Positions 52,144 through 63,287 of a DNA stretch of 64,000 nucleotides are shown piece after piece. The notes under the pieces were generated by a model. It did no database searches. It had not been told where the DNA came from and was given only the letters and a program-made list of their open reading frames with translations. A program made the translations under genes and the position numbers. Every line of letters starts with the position of its first letter. The stretch's first letter is position 1. The stretch is taken from NCBI RefSeq assembly GCF_001886715.1, contig NZ_CP018082.1:2170001-2234000 (forward strand). Direction: 5' to 3'. This stretch comes from Nocardia mangyaensis. Lineage in GTDB: Bacteria > Actinomycetota > Actinomycetes > Mycobacteriales > Mycobacteriaceae.

Positions 52144-52243
52144 GTGTGCCGGCTGCTCCCGCACGGCGACTCCCGAGTCGCGACATGCGGGCCGGGTGCG
52201 GCGTCGGGTCGCGCCCGCCCGCCTGCGGCAATACTGTCTGTCC

Positions 52244-55015
52244 ATGGGCGAATCGCGAATCGAGACCGAACAGGAAGCCACCCGGCCGCTGCGCGAGGAC
52301 ATCCGGTTTCTCGGCGGCATCCTGGGCGACACCCTGCGCGACCACGAAGGTCGCGAGGTGTTCGATCTGGTCGAGCGGGTGCGGACCGAGGCATTCCGGG
52401 TGCGCCGCGAGGAGGTCGAGCGCAGCGCGGTCGCCGACATGCTCGACGGCACGCCCACCGAGGTCGCGATTCCGCTGATCCGGGCGTTCAGCTACTTCGT
52501 GCTGCTGGCCAACCTGGCCGAGGACCTCCAGCGCGACCGGCGCCGCGCCGTGCACGTGGCGGCGGGGGAACCGCCGCAGGACTCCTCGCTGGCCGCCACC
52601 TACGACAAGCTCGACGCCGCGGCCATCGACGGCGCGACAGTGGCAGAGCTGCTCACCGACGCGCTCGTCTCCCCGGTCATCACCGCCCACCCCACCGAGA
52701 CCCGCAGGCGCACCGTCTTCGACGTGCAGGCCAAGATCACCGAGCTGATGCGCCTGCGCCGCCGCCTCGCGCCCGGCGAGCCCGGCTACGACGAATCGGA
52801 ACTGCGGATTCGCCGTGAAGTGCTCACCCTGTGGCGCACGGCGCTGATCCGGTTGGCGCGCTTGCGGATCCAGGACGAGATCTCGGTGGGCCTGCGCTAC
52901 TACGACCTCACCCTCTACGACGTGATCCCGGCCATCAACGCCCAGGTTCGCGCCGCCCTGCGTGTCCGCTGGCCCGAGGTCGACCTGCTGGCGCGCCCGA
53001 TCCTGCGCCCTGGCTCCTGGATCGGCGGCGACCGCGACGGAAATCCCTTTGTCACTGCCGAAGTCGTGCACACCGCGGCCGAGCAGGCCGCCGCCTACGC
53101 CTTCGGCCGGTATCTGCGTGAGCTGGTCGAACTGGAGAAGACGCTGTCGCAGTCGGCCCGCCTGGTCCAGGTGACGCCCGCGGTGGCCGCGCTCGCCGAG
53201 GCGGGGTATCCCGATCCGGCGTTCTTCGCCGACGAACCCTATCGCCGCGCGCTGCACGCGATCCGGGCGCGCCTGAGCGCCACCGCGCAGCGGTCGCTGG
53301 GCGAGCTGCCCGAGCACGGTCTCGACGCCGGGGCCGCGCCGTACCCCACCCCGCAGGCAGTGCTCGACGACCTCGACGCGATCGATGTGTCGATGCGCGC
53401 CAGCGGCGACGCCCTGCTCGCCGACGACCGCCTCGCCGCCCTGCGCCACGCCATCGAGACCTTCGGTTTCCACCTGCAGGGTCTGGACATGCGGCAGAAC
53501 TCGGAGGTGCACGAGCAGGTCGTCACCGAACTGCTGGCCTGGTCGGGCGTGCACGCGGACTATCCGAGCCTGTCCGAGGCCGAGCGCGTCGAGTTGCTCG
53601 CCGCCGAATTGCGGACGCGCCGACCACTTCTGGGCCCGAACGCCCAGCTGAGCGAGCTCACCGTCAAGGAGCTGGGGGTGCTGTGCGCCGCCAAGGAGGT
53701 GATCGACACCTTCGGCGCCGCCGCGATCCCGAACTACATCATCAGCATGTGCACCTCGGTCAGCGACATGCTCGAGGCCGCGCTGCTGCTGAAAGAGGCG
53801 GGCATCCTCGACCCGGGTTCGGCCGACAACCAGCCGAGCTGCCCCGTCGGGATCGTGCCGCTGTTCGAGACCATCGAGGACCTCGGCGCGGGCGCGTCGA
53901 CCCTGGCCGCGGTGCTCGAGGTGCCGGTGTACCGCGAACTCGTCGCGACCGCGGGGATGCGGCAGGAGGTGATGCTCGGCTACTCCGATTCCAACAAGGA
54001 CGGCGGGTATCTGGCCGCGAACTGGGCGCTCTACCGCGCGGAACTGGACCTGGTGGAGGTGGCAGGCAAGTCGGGCATCCGGCTGCGGCTGTTCCACGGT
54101 CGCGGCGGCACCGTCGGTCGTGGCGGCGGACGCAGTTACGACGCCATCCTCGCCCAGCCCGCCGGTGCGGTGCGCGGTTCGCTGCGGCTCACCGAGCAGG
54201 GTGAGGTGATCGCCGCCAAGTACTCCGAACGCGGTGCGGCACAACGCAATCTGGAGTCACTGATCGCCGGCACCCTCGAATCGACCCTGCTGGACGTGGA
54301 GGGTCTGGGCGAGGACGCCGAACCGGCCTACGAACTGCTCGACGATCTGGCCGCCCGCGCTCGCGCCGCCTACGCGCGCCTGGTGCACGAGACTCCCGGC
54401 TTCGTCGAGTATTTCCGCCAGTCCACGCCGGTCGCCGAGGTCGGCGATCTCAACATCGGTAGCCGCCCCGCCTCGCGCAAACCCACGAATTCGGTCTCGG
54501 ATCTGCGCGCCATCCCGTGGGTGATGGCGTGGAGTCAGGCCCGGGTGATGCTGCCCGGCTGGTACGGCACCGGCACCGCGCTCGAGGAATGGGTGGGCGA
54601 TGACCCCGAACGCCTGGCCCGCCTCACCGATCTCTACCAGCGCTGGCCGTTCTTCCGGACGGTGCTGTCCAACCTGGCGCAGGTGATGGCCAAGAGCGAT
54701 CTCGACATCGCCGCCCGCTACGCCGACCTGGTCACCGACGAAGCCCTGCGCGCGCAGATCTTCGGCATGATCGGCGACGAACACGCCCGCACCATCCGCA
54801 TGTACCTGGCGGTCACCGGGCACGCCGGCCTGCTCAGCGACAACCCGTCGCTGGCGGAGTCGATCCACAACCGCTTCCCCTACCTGGAGCCGCTGAATCA
54901 GCTCCAGGTGGACCTGCTGCGCAGGCTGCGCGGCGGTGACGATTCCGAACTGGTGAAGCGTGGCATCCTGCTCACCATGAACGGCCTGGCCACCGCCCTG
55001 CGCAACTCGGGTTAG
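52244..55015 (+). CDS. ppc: Phosphoenolpyruvate carboxylase
   Basis: Product of 923 residues from the ATG at 52244, with TACTGT (52232-52237) ending 6 nt upstream (leaderless). It makes oxaloacetate from PEP and bicarbonate, refilling the TCA cycle. Catalytic regions: H149 in [10 protein letters not shown], the lysine/loop [19 protein letters not shown], the arginine-rich [13 protein letters not shown] loop and the C-terminal allosteric ending ([20 protein letters not shown]). The aspartate-effector region ([20 protein letters not shown]) is present. Length is normal for bacterial PEPC. Confidence 0.97.
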
Positions 55016-55285: not shown

Positions 55286-55693
55286 TCAGTCGGTGACGAC
55301 GGCGAGCGCGTCGATCTCCACCAGCATCTCCTCGCGCGGCAGGCCGGTGAAGACGGTGGTGCGGGCGGGCAGCACGCCGTTGGTGGTGTGCTTGGTGACG
55401 AACTCGCCATAGGCGCCGTTCATGATCGTGAAGTCTTCGCGCTTGGTGAGGTACACCCGCAGCATCACGACATCGTCGAAGCTCGCCCCGGACGCCTCGA
55501 CGATCGCGCGCACGTTCATCAGGGTGCGGGTGGTCTGGGCGGCGACATCGCCGGGATGCAGGTACTCGTTGGTCTCCGGGTCGACCGGGCCCTGCCCGGA
55601 GACCTGGACGAACGGGCCCTTGCGCACGCCCTGGGAGAAGGTGTGGGCGGGCGCGGGCGCCTCGTCGGTGCGCACGGCGATCTTGTCGGTCAT
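55286..55693 (-). CDS. RidA family (YjgF/YER057c/UK114) enamine/imine deaminase
   Basis: Product of 135 residues with AAAGG upstream of the ATG. The trimeric chorismate-mutase-like fold shows FSQGVRKGPFVQVSGQGPVD, TLMNVRAIVEASGASFDDVV, MLRVYLTKREDF and the carboxylate-binding arginine in VLPARTTVFTGLPREEM. RidA proteins hydrolyse reactive enamines/imines released by PLP dehydratases. Here it is in a kinase-IclR-RidA transcript facing a PLP deaminase, so clearance of that enzyme's enamine product is a natural role. Inference from context. Confidence 0.93.
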   Translation of the reverse strand: MTDKIAVRTDEAPAPAHTFSQGVRKGPFVQVSGQGPVDPETNEYLHPGDVAAQTTRTLMNVRAIVEASGASFDDVVMLRVYLTKREDFTIMNGAYGEFVTKHTTNGVLPARTTVFTGLPREEMLVEIDALAVVTD

Positions 55694-55696
55694 GGT

Positions 55697-56467
55697 TCAG
55701 CCTTTCCTCGCGGTGACGGCTCGGCGGGGGTCCCAGCCGAGTTCGGTGGAGATAGCCTCGGCGGTCGCCCTGACCTGCGGCAACAGCGCGAGTACCTGAT
55801 CGTGGTCGAGCAGTACGTCGGGCACCGAGATCGACACGGCGGCCACGACGGCGCCGATCCCGTCGCGCACGGGGACACCGATGCAGTTGACGAAGCTCTC
55901 GTGTTCCTCGTGGTCCTCGGCGAATCCCTGCGCGGCGACGAGGTCGAGCTCGGCCAGATATTGCTCGGGGGTGCGCAGAGTGCGGGTGGTGAACGGATGG
56001 AAGTCCAGGCGCGCGGCGACGGCGGGCCATTCCGCGCGGGGCAGGGCCGCGACGAGCACCTTGCCGACCGCGGTGCAGTGCAGCGGCGCCGGCCGGCCGA
56101 TCCGGGAGTACATGCGCACCGCCTGCTCGGCATCGACCTTGTCGATGTAGACCGCGTCGCCGGATTCGTAGGCGGCCAGGTGCACCGTCTGGCCGGTGGC
56201 CGCACCCAGCGCGCTCAGGTGCGCACGCGCGACCGTGCGCACGTCGCGATTCTCCAGTGCGCGACTGGCCAATTCGAACATCCGCGTGCCCAGTGAGTAC
56301 CGGTGGGCGTTGTCGCGCACGACGAATCGTTCGGACTGCATGGTCTGCAACAGTCGCAGCACCGTCGACTTGTGGACCCCGAGCCGCCCGGCCAGGTCGT
56401 CGAGGGACTGCGAGTCCTCGCCGAGGGCGAGAAGAATGGACAGGGCGCGCGACACGCTTTGACTCAT
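55697..56467 (-). CDS. IclR family transcriptional regulator
   Basis: Product of 256 residues from the ATG at 56467, overlapping the stop of the kinase gene (ATGA). The winged helix-turn-helix reads SRALSILLALGEDSQSLDDL then AGRLGVHKSTVLRLLQTMQS; the C-terminal IclR effector domain (~75-245) has LHCTAVGKVLVAALPRAEWP and FVNCIGVPVRDGIGAVVAAV. It most likely controls the flanking sugar-acid operons through the palindromes at 57575-57600. The inducer is probably a pathway acid such as KDG; inference. Confidence 0.93.
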   Translation of the reverse strand: MSQSVSRALSILLALGEDSQSLDDLAGRLGVHKSTVLRLLQTMQSERFVVRDNAHRYSLGTRMFELASRALENRDVRTVARAHLSALGAATGQTVHLAAYESGDAVYIDKVDAEQAVRMYSRIGRPAPLHCTAVGKVLVAALPRAEWPAVAARLDFHPFTTRTLRTPEQYLAELDLVAAQGFAEDHEEHESFVNCIGVPVRDGIGAVVAAVSISVPDVLLDHDQVLALLPQVRATAEAISTELGWDPRRAVTARKG

Positions 56468-57507
56468 CGCCCGATCGTCCCATCCAGCGCGCCCGGATAG
56501 CGCAATCCGGCCCACACCCGCTCCGGCAGCGCCGCCAGGCGCTGAACATCTTGTACCGGAGGCAGTTTCGCGGCATCGCCGGTGGCGGTGAGCGCGGCGG
56601 CCGCGCACAGGTGGCCGTAGCACAGGCGGGTGCGCGGGTCGGCGCCGTACAGCAGGGCCGAGAGGTAGCCGCCCGCGAAAGCGTCACCGGCGCCGATGCG
56701 TTCGGTGAGCTCGAGGGTCAGGGCGGGTACCTCGATCGCGGTCTGGCCGTCGAATCCGGTCACGGTGTGCTTGTCGTTCTTGACGATCAGCTGGGCCGGT
56801 TCGGGGAACAGCGCCCGCAGGGTCGCGGGGTCGCCGGTGCCGAAGAGCTCCTCGGCCTCGTCGGCGCCGAGCAGCGCCACATCGGCGCCGCGCACCTGGG
56901 CGGCGAGTTCGTCGGCCGCCGCGCCGAGGCGCGAACCCCACAGGGCCGGACGATAATTCAGGTCGAAGCTGATCAGGCGACCGTGGCGGGGCATCGCGAG
57001 CAGGGTGCGGGTCAGCTCGCTCGCCGACGCCGACAGCGCCGGGGTGATACCGGTGAAGTGCACCAGATCAGCGCGGTCGAGTAACTCGGTGGCCACGGCG
57101 GACGCGAGGTCGGCGGGGGACAGGGCGCTCGCCGCCGACCCCGCGCGGTAGTAGAGCATCCGACTGCTGTGCGCCGGAAGATCGTGCGGTGCGCCGGAAC
57201 CGCTGCCGCGCTCCTTGACGTAGACGCCGGTCGGCCGCGCCGGATCAACGGTCACCGCCCCGACGTCGACACCGTGCGCCGCCAGCTCGGCCACCAGATA
57301 GCGCCCGAATCCGTCGTCGCCCACCCGCGACAGCCAGGCCGCCGAGACGCCGAGCTGGGTGAGCACCATCGCCACATTGGCCTCCGCGCCACCCGCTCCG
57401 CGTTCGAAGTGCGCGGACTGCTCGAGTGGTCCCGGCCGGGCGACGAGTACGGCCAGCCCTTCGCCGACGGTGACCGCCCTGGGCTGCGTCGATGTTGCCT
57501 GCGTCAC
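56464..57507 (-). CDS. kdgK: PfkB-family sugar kinase, probable 2-keto-3-deoxygluconate kinase
   Basis: Product of 347 residues from the GTG at 57507, with AAAGGG 8 nt upstream. Ribokinase-fold motifs: GG hinge in GAGGAEANVAMVLTQLG, SRVGDDGFGRYLVAELAAHG, VSFDLNYRP-type ISFDLNYRPALWG, NDKHTVTGFDG and the anion hole/base GAGDAFAGGYLSALLYG. FDxNxRPxLW is characteristic of KDG kinases. It would phosphorylate 2-keto-3-deoxygluconate for the KDPG-type aldolase encoded on the facing strand. The substrate is inferred from motif and context. Confidence 0.87.
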   Translation of the reverse strand: MTQATSTQPRAVTVGEGLAVLVARPGPLEQSAHFERGAGGAEANVAMVLTQLGVSAAWLSRVGDDGFGRYLVAELAAHGVDVGAVTVDPARPTGVYVKERGSGSGAPHDLPAHSSRMLYYRAGSAASALSPADLASAVATELLDRADLVHFTGITPALSASASELTRTLLAMPRHGRLISFDLNYRPALWGSRLGAAADELAAQVRGADVALLGADEAEELFGTGDPATLRALFPEPAQLIVKNDKHTVTGFDGQTAIEVPALTLELTERIGAGDAFAGGYLSALLYGADPRTRLCYGHLCAAAALTATGDAAKLPPVQDVQRLAALPERVWAGLRYPGALDGTIGR

Positions 57508-57574
57508 CTTCTTCGCCCTTTCGTGCTTGCGGTCACTGCCTCTGCGATGCACAATAACGAGCGAAAACACTGAA

Positions 57575-57600
57575 TGCAACCAGCGTTGCACATTATGCAA
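57575..57600. promoter_or_regulatory. Probable IclR operator between the divergent operons
   Basis: TGCAAC-CAGC-GTTGCA (57575-57590) overlaps TTGCA-N5-TGCAA (57586-57600). The paired palindromes lie 68-93 nt from the kinase start and about 62-87 nt from the deaminase start. Binding by the IclR protein is inferred. Confidence 0.6.
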
Positions 57601-57661
57601 TGCGTGTCGGATATGACCGATCGGCCCGGTACTCCCGGCCGGATCGAGGAAAGGGGATGCT

Positions 57662-58933
57662 GTGATCATCGACAACGGCGTCGTGGACGCGCTCGCCGAC
57701 GAGACACTCGGGCCGTGCCACAAGAGCGTGCCGCCCGCGGCATGGGGCCACACCGTCCGCGAATACCTGGCGAGCGCACCGGAACTCGCCCAGTGGCCGA
57801 CCCCGCTGCTCACCCTCGATCGCGGCAGGCTCGACGCGAACCGCGCACTGATGGCCGGGTGGACCGCGGCTGCGGGTGTCGCGCTCGCCCCGCACGGTAA
57901 GACCACGATGGCTCCGCAGCTGTGGCGCGAACAGCTCGACGCCGGATCGTGGGCGATCACCCTCGCCACGGCGTGGCAGGCCCAACTCGCCCGGTCGTTC
58001 GGGGTGGGGCGGATCATGCTGGCCAACACCCTCGTCGATCCCGTCGGCCTGGCCTGGGTCGCCACGGAATCCGCGCGCGATGCCGGATTCGAGTTCTTCT
58101 GCTGGGCCGACAGCGTCGCCACCGTCGAGCTGATGGACAAGATCCTGCGCGATGCGCCACCGAGCCCGCGAGTGCGGGTGCTGGTCGAGCTCGGCGGCCC
58201 GCACGGGCGCACCGGCGCGCGCACCCGGGCCGAAGGCCGCGCGGTGGCGGCCGCCCTGCGGGCGAGCGAGCGGCTCGAGCTGGCCGGTGTCGCCGGCTAC
58301 GAAGGCGCGCTGGCCCACGATCGCGGTATCGCCGGCCTCGCCGCCGTGCGCGACTACCTGGGCGAACTCGCCGCCCTGCACGGCGAACTCACCTGTCCGG
58401 GCGCTGCCGTCGTCACCGCAGGCGGCAGCGCCTACCCCGAGCTGGTCGTCGCCGAACTGGCCGCACTGGCCGACGACACCACCACGGTCGTCCTGCGCAG
58501 CGGCGCCTATCTCGTCCACGACGACGGCTTCTACGCCGGCATCTCCCCGCTGGCCGCCCCCGCGGTGGAACCGGGTCTGCGCGCCGCCATGCACGGCTGG
58601 GCGCGGGTGGTCTCACGGCCCGAGCCCGAACTGGCCCTGCTCGACGGTGGCAAACGCGACTTCCCCTTCGACGAGGGCCTGCCGGTGCCCCAGCTGGTCG
58701 TCGGGGCCGACCGCGCCCTCCCAGCAGCGGCGTCGATCACCGCGCTCAACGACCAGCACGCCTTCCTGCGACTGCCCGGCGCCGAGGCCACCGACCTGCC
58801 CGTCGGCAGCATCGTGCGGCTGGGTCTGTCACACCCGTGCACCGCCTTCGACAAGTGGCGGCTCATCCCGGTGCTCGACAGCGTCGATGCCGCCCGCCCC
58901 CGCGTGGTCGACCTGATCCGCACCTACTTCTGA
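57662..58933 (+). CDS. PLP-dependent amino acid deaminase / D-glucosaminate dehydratase-like (DSD1, D-threonine aldolase family)
   Basis: Product of 423 residues from a GTG with GAGGAAAGGGG upstream. A fold-type III alanine-racemase-like barrel holds the PLP lysine in ALAPHGKTTMAPQLW; the C-terminal metal-binding domain has LGLSHPCTAFDKWRLIPV, the HPC zinc/manganese site of DSD1-type enzymes. The N-terminal GPCHKSVPPAAWGHTVREYL is typical of the group annotated amino acid deaminase. Metal- and PLP-dependent D-glucosaminate dehydratase of Pseudomonas is recalled to belong here. Position before a deacylase and a KDPG aldolase favours a 2-amino sugar acid as substrate. Confidence 0.87.
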   Translation: MIIDNGVVDALADETLGPCHKSVPPAAWGHTVREYLASAPELAQWPTPLLTLDRGRLDANRALMAGWTAAAGVALAPHGKTTMAPQLWREQLDAGSWAITLATAWQAQLARSFGVGRIMLANTLVDPVGLAWVATESARDAGFEFFCWADSVATVELMDKILRDAPPSPRVRVLVELGGPHGRTGARTRAEGRAVAAALRASERLELAGVAGYEGALAHDRGIAGLAAVRDYLGELAALHGELTCPGAAVVTAGGSAYPELVVAELAALADDTTTVVLRSGAYLVHDDGFYAGISPLAAPAVEPGLRAAMHGWARVVSRPEPELALLDGGKRDFPFDEGLPVPQLVVGADRALPAAASITALNDQHAFLRLPGAEATDLPVGSIVRLGLSHPCTAFDKWRLIPVLDSVDAARPRVVDLIRTYF

Positions 58934-58936
58934 CGG

Positions 58937-60556
58937 ATGACCATGACGGACTTGCTTTTTCGAGACATCGCCATCGTCGACGGCACTGGCGGCCCGCGCA
59001 CTCGCGGTGATGTGCTGCTCCGCGACGGCCGCATCGCCGAGACCGGCCCGCCGGGATCGATCGGTTCCGAGGCGAGAGTGCTTCCGGTGGCACCGGGGTC
59101 GGTGCTCGCGCCCGGGTTCATCGACATGCACGCGCATTCCGACCTCGCCCTGCTCACCGACCCCGGCCATCTCCCGAAGATCACCCAGGGCGTGACCACC
59201 GAGGTGATCGGCCAGGACGGCCTGTCCTACGCGCCGATCGACGACGCCGCACTCGCGGTGGTGCGCAGGCAGATCGCGGGCTGGAACGGCAACCCGGCCG
59301 ACTTCGATTTCTCCTGGCGCACCGTGGCCCAGTACCTGGACCGGCTCGACGAGGGCATCACGCCCAATGCCGCCTACCTGGTCCCGCAGGGCACCCTGCG
59401 CCTGCTCGTCGTCGGCAGTGAGCAACGCGCGGCCACCACCGCCGAGATCGACCGGATGTGCGCGCTGCTGACACAGAGTCTCGACGAGGGCGCGGTCGGC
59501 ATGTCGAGCGGGCTCACCTACACGCCCGGAATGTACGCCGACACCGGCGAATTGGCTGCGCTCTGTTCGGTCGTCGCCGCCTACGGTGGCTTCTACGCCC
59601 CACACACCCGCTCCTACGGGGCGGGCGCGCTCGAGGCCTACGCGGAGATGATCGGCCTGGCCGAATCCACCGGCTGCGCACTGCATCTCACCCACGCCAC
59701 CATGAACTTCGGCGTGAACCGCGGGCGCGCACCGGAATTCCTCGCCCTGCTCGCGCGGGCCCGCGCCGACGGCTGTGACATCACCCTCGACACCTATCCC
59801 TACCTGCCCGGCTCGACGACGCTGTCGGCGCTGCTGCCGAGCTGGGCCATGTCCGGTGGTCCCGATGCCGCGCTGGCCCGACTCGACGACCCGGCCGAGC
59901 GCGCCAGGATCACCGCCGATGTCGACGTCAACGGCTCGGACGGCTGCCACGGCGTCACCGTCGAATGGGAGACCATCCAGATCAGCGGCGTCGGCGACGA
60001 CGCACTCGCCGAGTACGTGGGCCGCACGGTCGCCGAGATCGCCGCCGATCGCGGTGCGGCGCCCGCCGAGGTGTTCTTCGACCTGCTGCGCCGCGACCAG
60101 CTGGCCACCACCATCCTGCAGCACGTCGGCCACGAGGAGAACGTGCGCGCGATCATGGTCGACCCCGGTCACATGGGCGGCAGCGACGGCCTGCTCGTCG
60201 GCGCTCGCCCGCACCCGCGTGCCTGGGGCACGTTCCCGCGCTATCTGTCCCGCTACGTGCGCGAACTCGGGGTGCTCGGTCTCGAGGAGTGCGTGCACCA
60301 CCTCACCGGTCGGCCCGCCGCCAGGTTGCGGCTGGCCGACCGCGGACTCGTCCGCACCGGCTACGCCGCCGACCTGGTCGTCTTCGACCCGGCGACGATC
60401 CACGACACGGCCACCTTCGAACATCCCCAACAGCAGGCGCGCGGCATCCAGCATGTGCTGGTCAACGGCGAATTCGCCGTGGCGGACGGCGCCGCGACCG
60501 GTGCGCTCGCCGGACGTGCCCTGCGGATGGACGCCACGCGACAGGAGACCCGATGA
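58937..60556 (+). CDS. N-acyl-D-amino acid deacylase (D-aminoacylase family amidohydrolase)
   Basis: Product of 539 residues; the ATG at 58943 is an alternative start two codons later. Amidohydrolase superfamily: the first metal site HAH in APGFIDMHAHSDLALLTDP, QGVTTEVIGQDGLSYAP, MSSGLTYTPGMYADTGELAA, and HLTHATMNFGVNRG further on, then PRAWGTFPRYLSRYVRELGV and a C-terminal GYAADLVVFDPATIHD. The family removes N-acyl groups from D-amino acids. It starts 4 nt after the deaminase and overlaps the aldolase gene (ATGA), so the product feeding the PLP enzyme is plausible. Confidence 0.92.
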   Translation: MTMTDLLFRDIAIVDGTGGPRTRGDVLLRDGRIAETGPPGSIGSEARVLPVAPGSVLAPGFIDMHAHSDLALLTDPGHLPKITQGVTTEVIGQDGLSYAPIDDAALAVVRRQIAGWNGNPADFDFSWRTVAQYLDRLDEGITPNAAYLVPQGTLRLLVVGSEQRAATTAEIDRMCALLTQSLDEGAVGMSSGLTYTPGMYADTGELAALCSVVAAYGGFYAPHTRSYGAGALEAYAEMIGLAESTGCALHLTHATMNFGVNRGRAPEFLALLARARADGCDITLDTYPYLPGSTTLSALLPSWAMSGGPDAALARLDDPAERARITADVDVNGSDGCHGVTVEWETIQISGVGDDALAEYVGRTVAEIAADRGAAPAEVFFDLLRRDQLATTILQHVGHEENVRAIMVDPGHMGGSDGLLVGARPHPRAWGTFPRYLSRYVRELGVLGLEECVHHLTGRPAARLRLADRGLVRTGYAADLVVFDPATIHDTATFEHPQQQARGIQHVLVNGEFAVADGAATGALAGRALRMDATRQETR

Positions 60557-61194
60557 ACCCGCTGCTCAGCTCGTCCTCGCGCGCCATGGAGGTGATCCGC
60601 GCCGACCGCGCGATCACCGTGGTCCGCGCCCCGGAGATCCCCGACCCGGTGGCCCTCGCCGAAGCGCTCGCCGGTGCCGGTCTGCGCGCCGTCGAACTGA
60701 CCTTCACCACGCTGGGCGTGCTCGACGCGATCAGCAAGGCGACCGCGGTCACCGATGCGGTGATCGGCGTCGGCACCGTGACCACGCGTGCGCAGGCCGA
60801 GGCCGCGATCGGGGTCGGCGCCCAGTTCCTGGTGACGCCCGCGCTCCGGCCCGAGGTCGCCGAAGTGGCCGTCGAGCATTCGATTCCGGTGATCATGGGC
60901 GCCTTCACGCCCTCGGAGGTATTGGCGGCGGCCGAGATGGGCGCGGCGGCGGTGAAGATCTTCCCGGCCCGCGCGCTCGGCCCGGCCTATCTGAGAGATC
61001 TGCTGGGGCCGTTCCCGCACCTGTTCCTGATCCCGTCCGGTGGCGTCAACACCCACAACGCGCGTGAGTTCCTCCACGCGGGCGCGATCGCCGTCACCGC
61101 GGGCACCGACGTGGTCGCCCCCGCCGACGTCGCGAGCGCGCGCTGGTCCCGCATCGGCTCCCACGCCGCACGCTTCGTCCATTCGCTTGATTGA
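60553..61194 (+). CDS. eda: 2-dehydro-3-deoxyphosphogluconate (KDPG/KHG) aldolase
   Basis: Product of 213 residues, overlapping the deacylase stop by ATGA. The TIM-barrel class I aldolase motifs are visible: RAITVVRAPEIPDPVALAEA, LRAVELTFTTLGVLDAI (general-base Glu in VELTF), GVGTVTTRAQAEAAIGVGAQ, and the Schiff-base lysine in GAAAVKIFPARALGPAYLRD, with IPSGGVNTHNAREFLHAGAI closing. It splits KDPG to pyruvate and glyceraldehyde 3-phosphate. With the KDG kinase it forms the lower half of an Entner-Doudoroff-like branch. Confidence 0.93.
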   Translation: MNPLLSSSSRAMEVIRADRAITVVRAPEIPDPVALAEALAGAGLRAVELTFTTLGVLDAISKATAVTDAVIGVGTVTTRAQAEAAIGVGAQFLVTPALRPEVAEVAVEHSIPVIMGAFTPSEVLAAAEMGAAAVKIFPARALGPAYLRDLLGPFPHLFLIPSGGVNTHNAREFLHAGAIAVTAGTDVVAPADVASARWSRIGSHAARFVHSLD

Positions 61195-61205
61195 GAGGTA
61201 TCCCC

Positions 61206-62654
61206 ATGGGCGCCACTGTCGACTGGTTGCGCACCACCACCCCCGGGTTGCTGGTGCTGTGCGGTCTCGCGATCGCCGTACTCCTCATCGCCATCATCAA
61301 GGTCAAACTGGAGCCGTTCGTCGCGCTGCTGCTGACCGGTCTGGTGCTGGCCCTGGCCGCCGGGCTACCGGTCGCCGAGATCGTCGGTACGCCACTGAAA
61401 GCCGGTGAGTCACTCCTGGAAACGGGCTTCGGCGCAATCCTCGGCCACATCGCGGTGATCATCGGGCTGGGCACCGTGCTCGGCGCGATCCTCGAACGCT
61501 CCGGCGGCGCCGACGTGCTCACCGACAAGCTGCTGCGGGTGTTCGGCGAGAAGGGCGCGCCGGTCGCGATGGGCCTGCTCGGACTCATCTTCGGCATCCC
61601 GGTGTTCTTCGACATCGGCATCTTCGTCCTCGCGCCGCTGGTCTACGTCGCGGCCAAGCGGGGCGGTCGCTCGCTGGTGCTCTACGCCATGCCGATGCTA
61701 GCCGGACTGTCCATGACGCACGCGTTCCTGCCGCCGCATCCCGGTCCGGTCGCCCTCGGCGGTCTGCTCGGAGTGAGCCTGGGGTGGTTGATCATCATGG
61801 GATTCGTCTGCGGCATTCCGGGATTCATCGCCGCGGGCATCATGTGGGGCGCCTATATCGGCAAGCGTGTGCAGGTCGACGTGCCGAAGGAGTTCGTGCC
61901 GCTCGAGCCCAACGCCGCCACCGAATCCGAGCCCATCACCGGGTCCGACGGTTCCGGCGGCACGGCCGTGCTCACCAAGTCGCCGCCGTCGGTGGCGCTG
62001 ATCGGCGCGATCATCGCGATTCCGCTGGTCCTGATTCTCGGCGCCACCTTCGGTTACCAACTACTCGACCAGGATTCGGCCGTTCTGCAGGTGCTCACCT
62101 TCTTCGGTACACCCGCGGTCGCCCTGCTCATCACGGTGCTCGTGGCGTTCTACGTCCTCGGCATCCGGCGCGGGTCGACCGTGCAGGAACTGAGCACCAT
62201 CACGGCCGAATCGCTCAAGCCGGTCGGCATGGTGCTGCTGGTGGTCGGGGCGGGGGCCTTCTTCGGCAAGGTCATCTCCGCCACCGGCATCGGCACCGCC
62301 CTCGCCGACACCATGTCCGCGGCCGGCCTGCCGGTGATCGTGCTCGCCTACCTGATCAGCTGCGGCCTGCGCATCGCCCAGGGCTCGGCCACGGTCGCCA
62401 TCGTCACCACCGGCGGCATCGTCGCGCCGCTGGTCGCCGACCAGGGCTACTCCCAGATGGCGATCGCCCTGATCGCCATGGCCATCGCCGCGGGCTCGAT
62501 CATCCTCAGCCACGTCAACGACGGCGGCTTCTGGATCATCGCCAAGTACTTCAACATGACCGTGAAGCAGACCCTGCAGACCTGGACGGTGCTCGAAACC
62601 ATCCTGTCGGTGGTGAGCTTCGCGGTGGCGGCGTTGCTGTTCTCGATCCTCTAG
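61206..62654 (+). CDS. GntP-family gluconate/sugar-acid:H+ symporter
   Basis: Product of 482 residues from the ATG at 61206 with GAGAGG upstream. About 12-14 hydrophobic segments; GntP signatures include GFGAILGHIAVIIGLGTVLG, GLIFGIPVFFDIGIFVLAPL, SMTHAFLPPHPGPVALGGLL and SHVNDGGFWIIAKYFNMT. The family imports gluconate and related sugar acids. As last gene of the operon it should import the substrate of the deacylase/deaminase, possibly an N-acylated amino sugar acid. A hairpin follows 12 nt after the stop. Confidence 0.94.
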   Translation: MGATVDWLRTTTPGLLVLCGLAIAVLLIAIIKVKLEPFVALLLTGLVLALAAGLPVAEIVGTPLKAGESLLETGFGAILGHIAVIIGLGTVLGAILERSGGADVLTDKLLRVFGEKGAPVAMGLLGLIFGIPVFFDIGIFVLAPLVYVAAKRGGRSLVLYAMPMLAGLSMTHAFLPPHPGPVALGGLLGVSLGWLIIMGFVCGIPGFIAAGIMWGAYIGKRVQVDVPKEFVPLEPNAATESEPITGSDGSGGTAVLTKSPPSVALIGAIIAIPLVLILGATFGYQLLDQDSAVLQVLTFFGTPAVALLITVLVAFYVLGIRRGSTVQELSTITAESLKPVGMVLLVVGAGAFFGKVISATGIGTALADTMSAAGLPVIVLAYLISCGLRIAQGSATVAIVTTGGIVAPLVADQGYSQMAIALIAMAIAAGSIILSHVNDGGFWIIAKYFNMTVKQTLQTWTVLETILSVVSFAVAALLFSIL

Positions 62655-62723: not shown

Positions 62724-63287
62724 TCAGCGGGAATCGCCGGTCCTGTGCAGTGCGTGCACCAAGCGGGCGAGGGCCGGGCGGGGATCGGCCGCCCGCTCGA
62801 ATCCGCCGAGGCGGTGCACGACGGCACCGTCGAGGTAGTCGACGAGGATCGCGGTGTCGGCGGGCGAGATGCCGACCTGGGCCGCCATCTCGACGGCCCA
62901 GTCGCGGAGGCGATGGTGTGCGCGGTGCAGTGCGTCGTGCAACGCCGGTACCGTCGGCGCCTCGCCGAACAGGGCGAGGCGGGCCCGGGTGCGGACGCGG
63001 TCGGTCGTGGTGGTGTGGGTCAGGAACAGTGCCAGCCCGTCGACGAGGTGATCGACGGTGGCCGGGGCGGGCGCTCGGTTCAGTGCCGCCCAGTCGGCGT
63101 GATCACGCTGTTCGAGGCGGTCGGCGAGCCCGCACAGCAGTGCGTCACGGGTGCGGAAATAGTTCGAGGTCGATCCCGTGGGCAGGCCTGCCGCCTCGTC
63201 CACCGCGCGATGGGTCAGCGCGCGCGAACCACGGGTGCCGAGCACCTCGATGGCGGCGTCGAGAACCCGGTCGCGGTGGGAGATCAC
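62724..63287 (-). CDS. TetR family regulator of the adjacent FAD monooxygenase
   Basis: Product of 187 residues. The helix-turn-helix reads HRDRVLDAAIEVLGTRGSRA then LTHRAVDEAAGLPTGSTSNY, followed by FRTRDALLCGLADRLEQRDH; the C-terminal domain is of TetR_C-type. It is divergent from an FAD monooxygenase gene with three palindromic operators between them, one lying 9 bp from the start of this gene, so strong autorepression is likely. Confidence 0.93.
   Translation of the reverse strand: MISHRDRVLDAAIEVLGTRGSRALTHRAVDEAAGLPTGSTSNYFRTRDALLCGLADRLEQRDHADWAALNRAPAPATVDHLVDGLALFLTHTTTTDRVRTRARLALFGEAPTVPALHDALHRAHHRLRDWAVEMAAQVGISPADTAILVDYLDGAVVHRLGGFERAADPRPALARLVHALHRTGDSR

Follow-up and report, generated by a model that had tools for sequence, protein, structure and literature searches.

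The seven-gene locus at positions 55286–62654 of the Nocardia mangyaensis DNA analyzed here (the window: 64,000 nucleotides of contig NZ_CP018082.1, positions 2,170,001 to 2,234,000) is probably an actinobacterial unit for the utilization of N-acetyl-D-glucosaminate (2-acetamido-2-deoxy-D-gluconate; GlcNAc1A), the oxidized terminal sugar produced when copper-dependent AA10 lytic polysaccharide monooxygenases (LPMOs) attack chitin at C1. In the proposed route a GntP permease would import GlcNAc1A and an Asp-type amidohydrolase would remove acetate to give D-glucosaminate; a pyridoxal phosphate (PLP)-dependent deaminase would then eliminate ammonia to yield 2-keto-3-deoxygluconate (KDG), aided by RidA at the enamine/imine intermediate, after which a PfkB kinase would form 2-keto-3-deoxy-6-phosphogluconate (KDPG) and an aldolase would split it into pyruvate and glyceraldehyde-3-phosphate. 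A KdgR-like IclR protein would control both halves of the locus from one three-half-site operator. Most likely, judging from the genes, the locus serves the same purpose as the ong pathway of Proteobacteria, with components that differ in part; the chemistry itself is already known.

The seven open frames form two divergent, tightly packed operons, and the family identities given in the initial annotation of this DNA are borne out by the frames together with Pfam and NCBIfam, which agree. The leftward operon (minus strand) runs kinase, IclR, RidA; the rightward operon (plus strand) runs PLP deaminase, deacylase, KDPG aldolase, GntP. The deaminase (57662–58933) is a fold-type III, D-serine dehydratase-like enzyme (PF14031), with presumed PLP lysine Lys80 and presumed metal ligands His391 and Cys393 assigned from the family motif; it is the putative counterpart of OngC, and its nearest solved relative by sequence is PDB 3gwq (E 7.4e-68), a "putative" D-serine deaminase in its depositors' naming. 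The Amidohydro_3 N-acyl deacylase (58937–60556) carries Asp94, within GQDG, at the position of a metal-ligand Cys, and an insertion past its YPYLPGSTTL motif. The KDPG/KHG aldolase (60553–61194; PF01081 146 bits, TIGR01182 over cut-off) keeps in alignment the Lys of the VKIFP motif, presumably the catalytic one. The GntP-family permease (61191–62654, starting at TTG 61191 or ATG 61206; PF02447 403 bits, TIGR00791 over cut-off) is a probable GlcNAc1A importer, the inward direction being predicted along with the substrate. On the other strand, the PfkB-family kinase (56464–57507, from GTG 57507, an in-frame start further upstream being possible) scores 136.6 bits with PF00294 in a slightly shorter frame; it is a probable KDG kinase, its top NCBIfam model being KDG/KDGal kinase (171 bits, below the cut-off of 400) and the KDG kinase 1v19 (E 2.2e-37) ranking second among PDB entries after an unspecified PfkB protein, 4du5. 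The IclR-family regulator (55697–56467; PF01614 and PF09339 over cut-off) is KdgR-like by its top NCBIfam model (207 bits, below the cut-off of 275); its start was picked from the sequence as the ATG overlapping the kinase stop. The Rid-family imine deaminase RidA (55286–55693), an OngD counterpart by function, matches PF01042 with 104 bits and TIGR00004 with 97.8 bits (below the cut-off of 106), its closest PDB entries being 2dyy and E. coli YjgF 1qu9. The coupled or overlapping starts described initially are confirmed by the coordinates: there are 4-base overlaps between deacylase and aldolase and between kinase stop and IclR start, the aldolase and permease frames overlap or abut, and gaps of 3 bases separate IclR from RidA and the deaminase end (58933) from the deacylase start (58937).

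Evidence that these genes belong together comes from a scan of named genomes by alignment to the deacylase, using two search patterns of which one contains GQD; 590 relatives were confirmed, and the tallies below are for the best 80 of the 590. The deaminase lies near the deacylase in 80/80 loci, IclR in 77 (at least one of these, in L025, being a 31% match only), RidA in 76, KdgK in 69, GntP in 63 and KDPG aldolase in 48. All seven families, whose co-occurrence the initial annotation had proposed as a check, are present in 34 of the 80, and in 27 of the 60 loci of at least 20 kb; the remaining 20 loci are shortened by contig ends. Because a search by deacylase only recovers the partner genes in most loci, the association is not due to chance. 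In addition, 394 genomes drawn evenly from the class were screened for a deaminase with a high-scoring deacylase no more than 1.5 kb downstream; 53 contain such a pair, 37 of them from one genus (g27, presumably Streptomyces). The cluster is thus widely conserved across Actinomycetes and not local. Tsukamurella tyrosinosolvens (L126) has all seven genes in identical order, together with the operator motif described below, and its record holds single-gene names only, an instance of the bland gene-by-gene annotation that had been anticipated. Two other arrangements were also observed. L130, L142 and L143, from the taxonomic order to which the host belongs, have deaminase homologues (45–50% identity), with no deacylase within the 15–17 kb examined. 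In three genomes of 1.3–1.5 Mb from family f28 (G310, whose locus L137 also holds RidA, G236 and G372), the deaminase is close to a deacylase of 45–48% identity; these genomes have no LPMO or GH20 match, and are possible scavengers.

The same tallies bear on two other readings of the locus. Taken at their family names, D-aminoacylase and D-serine deaminase, the enzymes might serve catabolism of N-acyl-D-amino acids, or of D-serine or D-threonine, with the kinase and aldolase acting on some other, unrelated sugar acid and merely sharing the regulator. This is quite unlikely given that 70 of the 80 loci have a linked kinase or aldolase, that a single operator lies between kinase and deaminase wherever these are divergent neighbors, that the deacylase is elsewhere fused to GH20 (see below), and that D-serine would yield pyruvate, leaving a KDG kinase needless; moreover, a classical D-amino acid cluster, in the working definition, includes neither a sugar-acid kinase nor an aldolase, and the window has both. 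It is favored, on the other hand, by a weaker match of the permease to the D-serine transporter model DsdX (209 bits), by the fit of D-threonine aldolases to the deaminase model, as good as that of 3gwq, and by 10 of the 80 loci without kinase and aldolase nearby (KdgK is absent in 11, ten of them also without KDPG aldolase, some through loss at contig ends). That free D-glucosaminate from glucosamine oxidation is the main substrate, and the deacylase secondary, is highly improbable: an acetyl group is not required for deamination or for the KDG steps, and carriers without LPMO exist, but the deacylase starts 3 bases past the deaminase here and is adjacent to it in 53 class genomes. The 80 named loci, having been found through the deacylase, are no test of that reading.

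In favor of a single unit, the divergent promoter region contains a putative IclR operator, GCAA-N6-TTGC-N7-GCAA (57576–57600), which is the sole match in the window when up to one mismatch is allowed. One set of 78 loci served both to derive the motif and to score it, the spacing having been read off sites in 12 loci and the window; on that basis GCAA-N5/6-TTGC matches 77 times within the divergent promoter DNA (21,269 bases; 76 of 78 loci) and 8 times in the remaining 1,533,146 bases. The third half-site, GCAA at +21, occurs in all 76 N6 sites and was not part of their selection; the full 25-base pattern is present in 76 of the 78 divergent regions (missing in L017 and L036) and has no match in the rest of these loci. 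Among 17 other loci tested, the motif lies near the promoter in L126, L135, L136, L138 and L139, and two half-sites are found in L132. In the host genome (one contig of 7.31 Mb, to which all whole-genome counts refer) the exact pattern occurs twice and a reversed-pattern control once; with only two sites genome-wide against one in the control, the predicted regulator looks local. This one predicted operator ties the genes into a unit, and IclR is the candidate protein to bind it.

The ong pathway provides the closest functional precedent. In Pseudoalteromonas prydzensis, according to the accessible part of PMC9537276, OngB deacetylates GlcNAc1A, the end left on chitin by C1-oxidizing LPMOs, OngC converts the deacetylated product to KDG by deamination, KdgK phosphorylates this to KDPG and the RidA protein OngD is required for growth, steps established both genetically and biochemically; the complete pathway is reported there from Gammaproteobacteria and one Betaproteobacterium. 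The route to pyruvate from an N-acyl-glucosaminate that the initial annotation had proposed therefore stands as the best reading, and the GH20 and LPMO evidence below favors the N-acetyl compound; as a pathway it is not new. Like ong clusters, the window has a D-aminoacylase-superfamily deacetylase, a fold-III PLP deaminase, RidA (PF01042), a predicted PfkB-family KDG kinase (by PF00294 and PDB) and a KDPG aldolase (found in some ong members), with an AA10 LPMO in the genome and GH20 linked in several actinobacterial relatives. Unlike them, it has IclR in place of a MurR/RpiR regulator, GntP in place of an SSS symporter, no TonB receptor, no clustered GH20 corresponding to OngA and no OngB-family deacetylase. 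In BLAST at E 1e-3 against the reference ong-type cluster (L124, Pseudoalteromonas CF6-2 proteins), identities are 36% for the deaminase, 30.6% for the deacylase and 25% for the kinase; the remaining window proteins, including RidA against OngD, gave no match, nor was there any to OngR (MurR/RpiR) or OngIT (SSS importer). On these identities the published screen, stated in that part of PMC9537276 as requiring a minimum of four genes with more than 30% identity, would be expected to miss the locus, which may explain why it was unseen. A 56-row deaminase tree pairs the L124 OngC with a Cupriavidus row (100/99) and places actinobacterial rows elsewhere; its deep forks are weak and OngC has a long branch. 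That Actinobacteria assembled a GlcNAc1A route independently of the proteobacterial pathway is given slightly less than an even chance. In the Cupriavidus locus (L128), homologues of GntP and KDPG aldolase accompany genes of the OngB and OngC types, and Paraglaciecola, in the portion of PMC7014002 available, has a GH20 gene next to those for a deaminase, a D-aminoacylase and RidA.

A first link to chitin-derived sugars is found in Microbacterium, where a single frame of 1103 aa (L134:4542–7853, minus strand) carries both Amidohydro_3 and GH20 beta-N-acetylhexosaminidase domains. The protein, identical to one of Microbacterium sp. M28, contains the window-enzyme motifs HAHSD, GQDG, PHTRSYG and THATMNF, and neighboring genes encode the deaminase, two ROK proteins (one a regulator, the other a kinase) and a PF01182 protein. 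A second intact fusion of 1110 aa occurs at L144:9592–12924 (plus strand), and in a third genome the fusion halves are at two contig ends. A database search, whose length window favors fused and selects against unfused forms, gave 252 matches at E 1e-50; both domains are present in all 120 among the matches listed (P0242–P0361), and those with a genus name are all Microbacterium. The records are called "family 20 glycosylhydrolase", "hexosaminidase", "N-acyl-D-amino-acid deacylase" or similar. Apart from fusion, GH20 lies in the 10 kb flank of 6 of the 80 named loci, from Saccharopolyspora (one), Amycolatopsis (three) and Arthrobacter (two) (L045, L056, L058, L062, L063, L066). All six have sugar-ABC genes with a sugar-binding protein of one family, and four have a PF10282 lactonase, which could open the GlcNAc lactone first formed by LPMOs; Saccharopolyspora L052, L064 and L075 have the lactonase and binding protein, with GH20 not within reach. 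PF10282 lactonases with signal-like N-termini were seen by the cluster at L045:13515–14753, L063:13006–14133 and L064:14998–16152 (Saccharopolyspora, Amycolatopsis), and in Eleftheria terrae a "lactonase family protein" (L149:4616–5791) adjoins a related deaminase.

The second link is to LPMOs. The host genome encodes one LPMO_10 protein (E 2.1e-13) with a C-terminal chitinase-A1-type binding domain; it aligns from the His at its predicted mature start to the closest PDB entry, 5aa7, presumably a C1-oxidizing chitin LPMO. Among 148 Nocardia genomes the deacylase (E 1e-150) is present in 68, LPMO_10 in 50 and both in 43, so that LPMO_10 is found in 43/68 deacylase-positive and 7/80 deacylase-negative genomes (odds ratio 17.9; Fisher p 1.2e-12, uncorrected for shared ancestry). 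In the class sample LPMO_10 occurs in 44/53 genomes with the adjacent pair and 77/341 without it; all 37 pair-bearing g27 genomes have an LPMO, and because this one genus supplies most of the class-wide association, that association alone is judged weak. A Streptomyces coelicolor LPMO makes chitin aldonic acids, as stated in the part of PMC9820598 available. These two links bear on the possibility that the substrate is a different 2-acylamino-2-deoxy aldonate (N-acetyl-galactosaminate, N-acetyl-mannosaminate or an otherwise acylated glucosaminate), which would pass through the same steps and not be LPMO-derived. Sugar stereochemistry is unreadable from these families, the OngB pocket residues that read sugar hydroxyls are absent, and 9 of the 53 carriers have no LPMO; yet the GH20 fusion, whose neighbors include a ROK kinase and a gene of PF01182 (glucosamine-6-phosphate isomerase/6-phosphogluconolactonase family), fits GlcNAc-linked oligomers, LPMO co-occurs in Nocardia, and KDPG aldolase and KdgK best match the gluco series, by family name only. 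Such an aldonate is unlikely.

The deacylase proposed to act on GlcNAc1A has a distinctive metal site. Compared with OngB (PDB 9kb1; structure and residue roles as given in the accessible part of PMC12017989), Asp94 replaces the metal-ligand Cys97, Thr255 stands for Lys254, Tyr227 for Glu226 and Thr294 for Ser292, and Gln298 has no clear counterpart; the insertion is extra with respect to both OngB and the D-aminoacylases 1m7j, 3gip and 9g5m. The enzyme likewise lacks the Cys ligand (GNCG) of D-aminoacylase subtype V. Asp occupies this position in 99/99 covered loci (two of 101 being uncovered), of which 80 came from the search whose patterns include GQD and one is the window itself; the other 18, all with Asp, were reached through the deaminase and hence independently of the motif. 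Identification of the deacylase as an OngB orthologue was rejected on the metal ligand and pocket residues. A second deacylase, 32–39% identical, stands beside the deaminase in loci of family f39, that of Microbacterium (L090, L091, L093–L095, L097, L099, L104), some with KdgK and KDPG aldolase; it is of the GQDG type, and assignment to the Cys type was rejected, where covered (L099 and L104 being uncovered). Neither the missing Cys ligand of OngB and classical D-aminoacylases nor the likely substrate source, LPMO-oxidized chitin, had been noticed in the initial annotation.

Several observations weigh against GlcNAc1A as the substrate. The OngB substrate residues are unconserved in the window deacylase, so specificity is not transferable from OngB; a model of the deacylase fits OngB and D-aminoacylase folds equally, and that of the deaminase fits hydroxyaspartate as well as D-threonine aldolases no less than 3gwq. 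OngC itself is active on D-serine and D-threonine too, according to the part of PMC9537276 available. The LPMO co-occurrence statistics ignore shared ancestry; an LPMO is absent from 9 of the 53 cluster genomes and, g27 apart, present in just 7/16. GH20 next to the cluster is rare in the 53-genome sample (two intact fusions, a third divided by a contig break, and a partial contig-end match; expected 0.43), and reading by hand found none around it in any of the 37 g27 genomes. The operator was not found in the Microbacterium fusion loci L134, L144 and L145, and GCAA-N6-TTGC was found in 0/13 Nocardia LPMO loci (the host's own, L001, and L112–L123). In the host genome neither GH20 nor GH18 was found (a GH19 search gave no match, with its control equally silent, and is uninformative). 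The host thus has no obvious means of producing monomeric GlcNAc1A from chitin by itself and may scavenge it; at best it is a scavenger equipped with an LPMO.

The flanking frames are not apparently part of the unit: on the left is a long open frame (52196–55015), which presumably encodes a PEP carboxylase-like protein, and on the right a TetR regulator by Pfam (62724–63287).

GlcNAc1A catabolism in Actinobacteria was not recognized in the open-access literature, a search that lies outside most subscription papers and is therefore no proof of novelty; the parts available of PMC12343721 (haloarchaea), PMC13106269 (Arthrobacter), PMC11653859 (Aeromonas), PMC7014002 and PMC9820598 describe no actinobacterial pathway for it. 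Streptomyces are major soil chitin decomposers with several LPMO genes, as stated in the accessible portions of PMC9820598 and PMC10067821. If the proposed function is correct, the locus would fill a gap concerning the fate of oxidized chitin ends in actinobacteria, and would extend to a second phylum a pathway reported from Gammaproteobacteria. It would give a concrete substrate to many proteins now annotated "N-acyl-D-amino-acid deacylase" and "amino acid deaminase", and would contribute a novel family of deacetylases as well as a naturally occurring bifunctional enzyme, both easily assayed.

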